Below are positions 40,267 to 49,108 of a stretch of DNA of 64,000 bases, piece by piece. Every line of letters starts with the position of its first letter. The stretch's first letter is position 1. The stretch is from Xestospongia muta. Lineage: Eukaryota; Porifera; Demospongiae; Haplosclerida; Petrosiidae. The notes under the pieces are model-generated. The model was not told where the DNA came from and did no database searches. It was given only the letters and a program-made list of their open reading frames with translations. The DNA is taken from positions 2,592,923 through 2,656,922 of the forward strand of contig OY848922.1 in assembly GCA_963693285.1 (NCBI GenBank), in the 5' to 3' direction. Both the position numbers and the translations under genes were made by a program.

Positions 40267-43200
40267 ATGGGAGAAATCTTTTCCACACTTCGTACTTCAA
40301 CAGGAGAGTCATCTGAGTCTCAATTAACAGTGCCTTCTCCCGTTAATTCTTATATGAACCAAACTTGTACAATATGTATGAATGACCCGTATATATTGTA
40401 CACAGTGGATGTGAATGAAGTAAAAATGGATGGATGGATGGATGGATGGATGGATGAATGGACAGTTAGAGAAGGGATCATAGTAGGGAGGGTGGGAGGG
40501 ACAGACAAACGGATAGATGAATTGACAGGCAAATGATCAGACATAATAGAATGATAGACAAGTGGATATATAGTTTGCTTGATAACTAGTTAGTTGTTTC
40601 TCCATTATATAGATAGTTCTTATGCCTGTTTGTGGCCATTGTTTATGCAAAAAATGCTTCAAAAACAACTTCAAGAAAGAAGAGGGAATTAAACATTTCA
40701 ATTGCCCTACTTGTGGTGAACCTGATTTCTTCAAATTGTCTAATCAGGCACAATATATGTACTTAAAACTGTTTATTGAAATGGTAAGAACGGTATATGA
40801 GAATAACACGATTGTTTCCTTCCAGGTTAAGGCAAATTTTGAGGAAGATGTTTATGATAACTGTCTGAAAGCAGTGGCAGGATTCTGCTTTTCTGTAAAT
40901 CCAAGTGTTGTCTGGCCATCTCGTGAGGTATGTTCTGTATATTTGTACATGTACACAAACTCTGTTATCCTATTTAGCCTAATATGTCTCTAATTATGGA
41001 AGAGTGTGAAATGTATGTAGCAGAGAAAGCAAGGCTCTTCTTAGAGTTAATTAGAGAAGACCATCAACTTCCATTATTTCACTATATTGAAGCTGTTTAT
41101 AATTTTGATAATTTTGAAGAAGCTAAAAGGTCTCTGATTCAGTCTTGTCCGATATGTATGGATGAATATCCCAAAAATGAGGTAAGTCGGAGTTCTATTT
41201 AACAAATAAATGATATTTCATTACTGTAGATGATCCTTATGCCAGCTTGCACAGATATCTTATGTGTGAACTGTTTTAAAGACTACTGCAGAATTATCAT
41301 CAGAGAAGAGGGTATTAAAAGATTCAATTGTCCAATTTGTGGTAATCCTAACCTATCCAAACTTGACCTGAAGCAAGATGAGTACTTGGATCTGTTTGTT
41401 AAAATGGTGAGCTGGAGAGTGGTGTAATATGATAACTATGAGTCTTTTCTGTACTAGGTTAAGACACATTTAGATAAAGATATATATGATATGTGTCAGG
41501 AAAAAATGATAACTTTCTGTCTCTCAGAAGATCCTGATTTTGTCTGGTGTCCTCACAAGGTACGCATCTGTCTTAGTTCTTTGTGTACAAAGTTTATATG
41601 GAAGATGGTCATGAGATTGTTGTATCATATTTTTATAGTTAAATTAACAGATACAAATTATTTTTGTTTTCCAATTGTGATCTTGTACTAAAGATTACTG
41701 CAAATCTGGTAATTTTCATAGTTTCATAGTTACTTGTGAACTATGAAAAATTTTAAGCACATATTGTTGATGTAATAATCTTCCAAATCACAAAAAATAA
41801 ATTTACACAATGCACTAAAGTTTCTATAAATGAAAATTTCCAAAATTATGGTATGCTGATAGTAGTATACTTGTTAATCATGATGACTTAACTTCTTTAA
41901 AGATTGGTCTACTAGGTATTAGTAGAATACTTAATAAAATGAATGTAAATTCTAATGCATCAAGTTGTCTGTGTAACATCTCCCTCCTCAGTTGGATTCA
42001 TGTTTTTGTATTGTATTTGCATATTTTTGCTTTAATTATCACAGTCTGTTAACATCATCATTATCATTCTCTCTCTCTCTCTCTCTCTCTCTCTCTCTCT
42101 CTCTCTCTCTCTCTCTCTCTCTCTCTCTCTTCTCTCTCTCTCTCTCTCTCTCTCTCTCTCTCTCTCTCTCTCTCTCTCTCTCTCTCTCTCTCTCTCTCTC
42201 TCTCTCTCTCTCTCTCTCTCCTCTCTCTCTCTCTCTCTCTCTCTCTCTCTCTCTCTCTCTCTCTCTCTCTCTCTCTCTCTCTCTCTCTCTCTCTCTCTCT
42301 CTAGAATTGTGGATATAGTTTTATTAATAAAATAAGAGGCTCTAAAAAGATCCAATGTCCTTCATGCAAAGGTTCTATGTGTTTCTTCTGTAGAAAGAAG
42401 GTAGCAATTAATTATTAGCTGTTATCCAATTATATATATTGTCACTACATTACATAAGTGCCCCATATATCAAAAAATTATTATATTCAGAAGTACTTTA
42501 AAACTGCTTGAAAGTATCTGTGAATTTTATATTGCTAGGCAAAACCATGAGCACTAAGTACTACTTTTGACAAAATATGTTCATGGCACTTGGAAAAGTG
42601 CTTAATGGTTATGCTCTTAAATGTGGCCCATTCACTGTAAAAATTGATTTGTTAATTTAACTAATATATTGTTATACAGGTTACATGTAATAAACTTAAT
42701 ATGATGTGAAAGTAAACATAACACTGTTTTTTATTACTAGCGTACTACTGTTTGTGCAGCTGTAGTGCATTAGTAGTAAAAACAGTGTTATGTTTACTTT
42801 TACATCATACTATATTTGCTACATGCAACCTGTATAACAATATATTAGTTAAATCAACAAATCAATTTTTACAGTGTTCCTATGTAAAATCTTATAAAAG
42901 CTTTTTAGCTTCTATTTTTTTCATTTTGCAACCACCTGAAGTACAGAACCCTTGCCACAGTAGCAGCGAATGATTGAAATGCACTATATCCACCCTCTGT
43001 ATTGTGGAGCATGGAACTACAATTGCTACAGATCATTTAACAACTTATTAAACATTGTTAAAATAGATTGGTCGTTTTAATCCATTCATGGCCACTCAGG
43101 TTGCATATATCCCTACAAAATACATTTAAAAGTGTTGCCAACACTTATACTATTGTGATTACTAATTACAATAGAATTGATAGTTTGTGTACTTCAACAA

Positions 43201-49108: not shown

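Follow-up and report, generated by a model that had tools for sequence, protein, structure and literature searches.

The stretch of DNA analysed here, 64,000 nt of the Xestospongia muta genome (G000, contig C6, 2592923-2656922; hereafter the window), carries on its forward strand a gene at 40267-49108 in which a RING1-IBR-RING2-LDD body (RBR-LDD) of HOIP type is followed in one open frame by eleven ubiquitin-like repeats and a Death-type domain. HOIP is the enzyme that builds linear (Met1) ubiquitin chains. In the window gene its catalytic residues are lost, as are nearly all Gly-Gly joints of the chain, and the ratio of non-synonymous to synonymous substitution rates (dN/dS) is low. We consider it moderately likely that the product is a pseudo-ligase scaffold or adaptor, composed of a HOIP duplicate, a chain and a Death domain, that would imitate a linear ubiquitin chain instead of making one.

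Gene structure and origin of the last exon

The gene was modelled by hand and compared with the whole assembly (158 Mb, 28 contigs). The model comprises 13 exons, with all 12 introns bounded by GT/AG, and encodes 1,523 residues with no stop codon. The domain order is a duplicate of RING1, the RING1-IBR-RING2-LDD body, the ubiquitin-like repeats R1-R11 and the Death-type domain. Pfam recognizes the LDD (PF18091) at 72.7 bits (cut-off 23), IBR at 35.0 (24.3) and IBR_1 at 29.0 (27); PF01485, PF22191 and PF18091 all exceed their cut-offs in the order RING1-IBR-RING2 then LDD that marks HOIP, and eleven ubiquitin (PF00240) stretches reach 789 bits. A phmmer search of the PDB retrieves human RNF31/HOIP at E 3.1e-73, with an alignment spanning RING1 to LDD. 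The original prediction, made from the letters of the window, had read a HOIP body whose last exon stays open into eleven ubiquitin-like repeats, and both parts of that reading hold; the HOIP-specific strings it quoted are found in exons 8, 10 and 12.

Members of the LDD family give four matches at three places in the genome: the window gene, C14:960.5k and C14:792.4k. The gene at C14:960k is an ordinary HOIP with RBR and LDD, a RING2 reading GGCMHFHC and a UBA-like exon (by eye); a PUB-like match some kb upstream (23.6 bits, below the cut-off of 34.3) is assumed to belong to it. Counted from the exon corresponding to exon 4, the exons of C14 HOIP measure 204, 177, 102, 93, 115, 119, 139, 292, 175 and 51 nt, and those of the window gene 204, 177, 102, 96, 115, 119, 139, 211, 169 and 2814 nt. 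Six of exons 4-12 have equal lengths in the two genes, and the length differences of the other three are multiples of three. In the window gene these exons encode the HOIP helical region and the start of RING1 (exon 4, 40978-41181), RING1 (exon 5, 41230-41406), the start of the IBR (exon 6, 41458-41559), the IBR (exon 7, 42305-42400), the IBR-RING2 linker (exon 8, 43746-43860), RING2 (exon 9, 45283-45401), the end of RING2 with the start of the LDD (exon 10, 45503-45641), and the LDD (exon 11, 45758-45968; exon 12, 46025-46193).

The last intron interrupts both genes at the same codon (RLIE|). Beyond it, C14 HOIP reads HVKEQLPIQRDNPNPV and stops, whereas exon 13 of the window gene (46295-49108) is chimeric: its first 13 codons (46295-46333), aligned against HVKEQLPIQRDNP, represent the HOIP tail and run without a stop into R1. 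These 39 nt are identical to the C14 tail at 19 positions, 11 of 12 nucleotides of the splice acceptor match too, and the protein score of the tail is equalled by 95 of 100,000 shuffles. It weakens the case for the tail that 19/39 identity is reached at 205 of 22,666 AG-anchored places (0.9%) and at 2,986 of 369,258 places overall in the loci examined; the similarity is modest alone and counts mainly together with the shared exon lengths. Intron 12 contains neither AATAAA nor ATTAAA, and the first in-frame Met of exon 13 comes no earlier than residue 148. The shared intron position, tail codons and acceptor, and the lack of a poly(A) hexamer or an early Met, indicate an extended last exon of HOIP and not two neighbouring genes. 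On these features, and on the alignment to human HOIP, this is one fused gene of HOIP descent, as originally claimed, in which the last exon of a HOIP duplicate is extended into the chain.

The junction recurs in a second record: P0123 (ENA, 939 aa, on a 1.55-Mb contig) aligns to exon 13 gap-free with 924 of 939 residues identical, and holds the LDD tail, the eleven repeats and the Death domain in one frame. Another record, P0127, covers part of R11 and the Death domain and is identical at 154 of its 168 residues. When the genome was searched with the LDD-R1 junction, no second place joining the two was found. Protein searches for relatives, which require shared 5-residue words and a set length range, returned six proteins for the HOIP half, all with PF18091 and none with a ubiquitin family in the precomputed Pfam lists; 2,219 for the start of exon 13, with P0123 among the best 120 of 2,219; and seven for the Death tail. 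This architecture was not found in literature titles and abstract openings, a coverage that leaves out most subscription journals.

The N-terminus carries an extra RING that the original prediction overlooked. Exon 1 (40267-40419) holds the start and the first half of this RING (CTIC) and exon 2 (40613-40783) the second half; Pfam RING models match below cut-off at approximately residues 31-87. By eye, exons 2 and 3 (171 and 102 nt) resemble exons 5 and 6 (177 and 102 nt) and appear to duplicate them, exon 3 (40826-40927) having lost an IBR Cys and reading VVWPSRE for FVWCPHK. Directly upstream on the same strand lie prenyltransferase (PF00432) exons (37634-39615). The window gene most likely lacks the PUB, NZF and UBA part of HOIP, because the prenyltransferase ends at about 39615 and the frames scanned from there to 40267 match nothing. 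Searches for PUB and UBA (tblastn with C14 pieces; best E 0.07 and 1.2) and for NZF (with that of L006, a second HOIP relative described below; best E 0.19) gave no convincing match, and short exons could escape them.

Residues of the ligase reaction

Three ordinary HOIP/LUBEL proteins, namely C14 HOIP, Xenopus RNF31 (P0001, C-terminal 420 residues) and Bactrocera LUBEL (P0002, C-terminal 620 residues), have 32 invariant Cys/His columns in common, of which the window gene keeps 30. The sole two lost are the catalytic Cys885, replaced by Ser389 (AGT, 45327-45329), and His887, replaced by Tyr391 (TAT, 45333-45335); two random losses would hit exactly this pair with a chance of 1 in 496. The RING2 alignment to HOIP in the PDB (5edv/6sc5) is gap-free, CSGSMYFCC in the window gene standing against RGGCMHFHC. 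Further on, the HHPRD of HOIP, with the acceptor-binding Arg935-Asp936, has become HHSWE, with Trp432-Glu433 (45557-45562) in their place. The C885A and H887A mutants of HOIP are reported to be inactive (PMC3730226); Arg935 and Asp936 are described as touching the acceptor ubiquitin at Glu16 and Thr14, and their replacement by Ala as abolishing linear ubiquitination (PMC7125101). Since both thioester-forming and acceptor-transfer residues are gone, the protein should not build Met1 chains, and is almost certainly dead as a builder of them. The original prediction, which had missed this loss, proposed a scaffold rather than, or as well as, a ligase; the scaffold is strongly favoured by these replacements, while activity alongside it appears unlikely.

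The rest of the body remains under constraint. Over 456 codons aligned with C14 HOIP, dS is 1.24, dN 0.30 and dN/dS approximately 0.24, a pairwise ratio that averages both branches at a dS near saturation. With the framework kept, the chemistry gone and constraint present, the RBR-LDD half has the hallmarks of a pseudo-enzyme. Both a polyubiquitin gene and a HOIP with catalytic residues (on C14) remain in the genome, and HOIP/RNF31 is reported to be widely conserved across metazoans (PMC12778051). The window gene shares with HOIP/RNF31 and insect LUBEL the RING1-IBR-RING2-LDD order and the conserved Cys/His positions, and with the HOIP of its own genome the exon structure. It differs from them in the loss of Cys885, His887 and Arg935/Asp936, in that no PUB, NZF or UBA was found, and in its RING1 duplicate, added ubiquitin-like chain and added Death domain.

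The ubiquitin-like chain and the Death-type tail

Repeats R1-R11 lie head to tail at 46334-48778 and, split and aligned from the eleven PF00240 stretches, share 40, 49, 51, 65, 67, 50, 49, 48, 49, 50 and 48 of 76 residues with ubiquitin. A Gly-Gly end is found in R4 only (LRLRGG) and is missing from the other ten, in departure from a polyubiquitin precursor; RLRGG|M is kept at one of ten inter-repeat joints, between R4 and R5 (46994-47446, joint at 47221/47222). The chain is therefore no faithful copy of linear ubiquitin, contrary to the original prediction, and only R4|R5 resembles Met1-diubiquitin. Relative to ubiquitin, dN/dS is 0.10-0.33 in ten repeats, with dS above 1.3 in six of those, and is not estimable for R11. 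R6-R7 and R8-R9 (47447-48340) are two recent copies, in tandem, of one pair of repeats (dS 0.02).

Readers of linear chains contact both ubiquitins: NEMO is reported to bind the Ile44 patch and Leu73/Arg74 of the distal unit and the Phe4 patch of the proximal one, and proximal Glu16 to be important for OTULIN and CYLD (PMC5135002). Following these patches in part, we chose 14 reader residues (distal L8, I44, H68, V70, L73, R74, G75 and G76; proximal M1, Q2, F4, T12, T14 and E16). R4|R5 keeps 13 of the 14, the nine other joints 4 to 8, and the joints of a chain fused to a TRIM protein on contig C3 (L007, described below) 7 and 6.

The R4-R5 region has close counterparts elsewhere in the genome. 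Residues 19-76 of R4 with 1-65 of R5 differ from the closest C6 polyubiquitin repeat by approximately 20 synonymous and 4 replacement changes; the copies compared were five on C6, eight on C2 and the two of four repeats of a ZU5/Death neighbour that the search pattern caught. By synonymous differences the closest copy is a repeat of that neighbour (15 synonymous, 26 replacement). Residues 1-18 of R4 are far more divergent than the block that follows, which also fits a border of gene conversion. Selection and recent gene conversion both fit the preservation of R4-R5.

The repeats derive from polyubiquitin-type sequence; the original description of the chain as the product of the protein's ancestral activity stands as a functional analogy only. 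Like polyubiquitin precursors of the UBB/UBC type, the chain consists of head-to-tail repeats in one exon, and R4 and R5 (65/76 and 67/76) come close to ubiquitin itself; unlike them, it keeps Gly-Gly at 1 of 10 joints, sits between HOIP and Death-type parts and is not a ubiquitin supply. An ordinary polyubiquitin gene with five identical repeats lies at 23516-24727 on the reverse strand, approximately 16 kb from the fusion gene. Also on the reverse strand, the neighbour mentioned above has four ubiquitin-like repeats (35851-36789), a ZU5 domain (34941-35603) that scores 23.8 bits against a cut-off of 21, and a Death match that stays under its cut-off (33418-33891); the frames from 36789 to 33418 are perhaps one gene, and its tail is 32% identical to that of the fusion. 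A common origin of the window, TRIM and ZU5 chains was considered, but the tree was small with mostly weak support and is not used here.

The Death-type domain and the stop codon occupy 48779-49108. A genome search with the last 107 residues gives at least 150 matches, the query included (150 scored of 1,346 candidates), many of them on contigs C1, C2 and C5. The Death domain of the original prediction is upheld by profile and not by direct matching. The tail alone gives no match to Pfam Death (PF00531), which speaks against the assignment, and a 9-row profile of it found no death domain in the PDB. A 29-row profile places FADD death domains on top (E 0.0013), PF00531 is matched individually by 11 of those 29 rows (E up to 1; lowest 1e-6), and hhalign aligns it to 16 PF00531-matching domains of the genome (16 of the 150 matches listed) at 97.6%. 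We regard the tail as a Death-type domain, by profile only, and its six-helix death fold as putative. Among the matches listed, the nearest relatives are eight places on C4, 64-67% identical. Three of these eight tail exons were read with the preceding exon, and the one scanned shows ankyrin and Roc. These Ank-Roc-'Death' genes share the tail with the fusion gene, but the stretches read contain neither an RBR nor a ubiquitin-like chain. At the DNA level the match begins approximately where the C4 tail exon does, so that an exon border of the tail was probably the point of joining.

Proposed function, alternatives and related loci

In the scaffold explanation, a HOIP gene would have been duplicated, and its last coding exon would have gained a divergent chain of polyubiquitin type together with a Death-type domain. 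With its zinc-binding framework retained, the RBR-LDD body may remain able to bind E2~ubiquitin, ubiquitin or partner proteins. The built-in chain would offer many ubiquitin-type surfaces, including one near-native Met1-diubiquitin epitope at R4-R5, and the Death domain would couple the protein to death-fold assemblies. The outcome would be a ubiquitin-chain platform at a Death-domain complex that needs no synthesis and that deubiquitinases could barely erase. Full-length transcription, folding, every binding event and the pathway are predicted here from the DNA. The original interpretation as a whole thus finds partial support, and the observation behind it is confirmed. If the gene is expressed as one protein, the lineage would have replaced enzymatic synthesis of linear chains by a hard-wired, largely uncleavable chain with a Death domain, and chain presentation without ligase activity would be sufficient for selection to retain it at a complex of Death type. 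With one near-native joint and nine that are not, the fusion chain would provide a direct test of the linear-chain features that readers need.

The closest known analogue in principle is OASL. Mammalian OASL1 is reported to have lost catalysis, and the two C-terminal ubiquitin-like domains of OASL to be important in the RIG-I and IRF7 pathways (PMC6307210). In OASL, as in the window gene, a duplicated enzyme has given up catalysis and acquired ubiquitin-like domains in tandem at its C-terminus; it differs in being an unrelated enzyme and in having two such domains against eleven. OASL is not known to have a Death domain, and the likeness is one of analogy, not homology.

Several observations weigh against the scaffold explanation, beside the limits already given for the exon 13 tail, the pairwise dN/dS and the Death assignment. 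The joints of the ZU5-neighbour chain keep 10, 13 and 11 of the same 14 reader residues, so that R4|R5 is exceptional only among the joints of its own chain. Repeats R6-R9 and R11 have lost or changed the Ile44 patch, and much of the chain may therefore not be read as ubiquitin. In comparison with the closest copy, the proportion of replacement to synonymous differences does not differ between the inside and the outside of the R4-R5 block (Fisher p 1.0), and P0123 differs in R4 at the adjacent residues K63N and E64K; the epitope may stem from recent gene conversion, not from selection. Lacking PUB and UBA, the protein would also not join the linear ubiquitin chain assembly complex (LUBAC) in the usual way.

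The main rival to a scaffold is a decoy or dominant-negative protein, whose inactive RBR-LDD and chain would sequester E2~ubiquitin, acceptor ubiquitin or readers and so damp genuine HOIP signalling rather than favour assembly. In its favour are the loss of the catalytic residues with the framework retained, the loss of the UBA and PUB region, and the persistence on C14 of a HOIP with RBR, LDD and catalytic residues; but a decoy would need neither the Death domain nor an eleven-repeat chain, and the present evidence does not distinguish agonist from antagonist. We judge this explanation unlikely, while giving it more weight than any that follows. Decidedly more doubtful is a protease-gated switch, suggested by the coincidence that R4|R5 is both the only near-intact epitope and the only site of the type cut by OTULIN, CYLD or USP enzymes. 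Cleavage there would release the seven later repeats with the Death domain from the pseudo-ligase and its four repeats, the last of which would then end in a free RLRGG, and would place the built-in chain and Death module under the control of host chain erasers, the nine other joints having been made uncleavable by Gly-Gly loss.

It is improbable that the protein is still a ligase by an unusual route, using Cys386 or Cys393 as nucleophile, an oxyester of Ser389 with ubiquitin, or direct transfer from the E2 at RING1. There are cysteines near the lost site, Cys386 lying three residues before the catalytic position; RING1 retains its Cys columns, and by eye the extra RING shows a Cys/His pattern of RING type (below cut-off in Pfam). 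His887 and Arg935/Asp936 are gone too, however, and the human HOIP mutants C885A and H887A (PMC3730226) and the Ala mutants of Arg935/Asp936 (PMC7125101) are reported to be inactive.

We find little reason to suspect a decaying relic either, that is, an inactive HOIP duplicate adrift with a chain made of debris of polyubiquitin copies. The lost catalytic and acceptor-binding residues and the missing N-terminal domains agree with decay, as does the distribution of differences to P0123: with the start residue excluded, 8 of 15 fall in the 109-residue tail and thus in the Death domain, and 7 elsewhere (Fisher p 0.00015, computed with the start residue as an eighth difference elsewhere). Against decay stand the 1,523 open codons, the absence of any stop or gap from the 939 codons of P0123, the 30 of 32 Cys/His columns kept and the dN/dS of approximately 0.24. 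Ubiquitin drifting neutrally to the observed divergence would acquire 20.2 stops on average, and none of 2,000 simulated chains was free of stops, a result that also rules out a random open frame. Least probable is a pair of genes or an assembly artefact, with a HOIP-like gene ending near 46217, where reading through the exon-12 donor meets a stop, and a ubiquitin-chain/Death gene next to it; the HOIP-like acceptor and tail codons of the chimeric exon 13, the lack of a hexamer in intron 12 and of an early Met in exon 13, and the same junction in P0123 led us to reject it.

Ubiquitin-like chains, E3 parts and Death-type domains appear to have been combined repeatedly in this genome. The TRIM fusion on C3 (L007 6006-9101, forward strand) is a single open frame, 1,032 codons long, in which three ubiquitin matches precede a partial RING without the first CxxC, B-boxes, filamin and NHL. 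It resembles the scaffold candidate in joining a divergent ubiquitin-like chain to an E3-type protein, and differs in that its chain is N-terminal with three repeats matched and its E3 part is a TRIM with B-box, filamin and NHL, not an RBR. The second HOIP relative, at C14:792k (L006 8636-4365, reverse strand), has an RBR-LDD with the catalytic Cys and His kept; its hand-spliced model comprises 15 exons with no stop and one GC donor, and is without a 3' end. At its start, the exon scanned by itself gives a Death match of 21.7 bits, under the cut-off of 22.6. The exons upstream of the RBR-LDD also yield an NZF below cut-off and an extra RING that looks similar to that of HOIL-1. The pattern may be wider than the fusion gene, since L007 joins a chain to a TRIM with a degenerate RING and a Death-type domain may also be present in another HOIP relative.

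Other loci contain related sequence. L010 (1774-7171, reverse strand) has four frames, each with a ubiquitin-like stretch followed by RBR- or RING-type cysteine-rich sequence (by eye). Two open frames of 1,194 and 1,066 codons in L009 (1379-9497, reverse strand) consist largely of very divergent ubiquitin-like repeats, and L012 (4521-5480, forward strand) has one ubiquitin-like domain with a C-terminal part that Pfam does not recognize. Elsewhere in the window lie three very similar frames of approximately 500 codons (4038-5537 and 9800-11302 on the reverse strand, 15124-16623 on the forward strand), two of which were scanned and both match IgGFc_binding (PF17517). A tandem array of approximately 41 copies of a 16-base unit occupies 50307-50997, downstream of the fusion gene.

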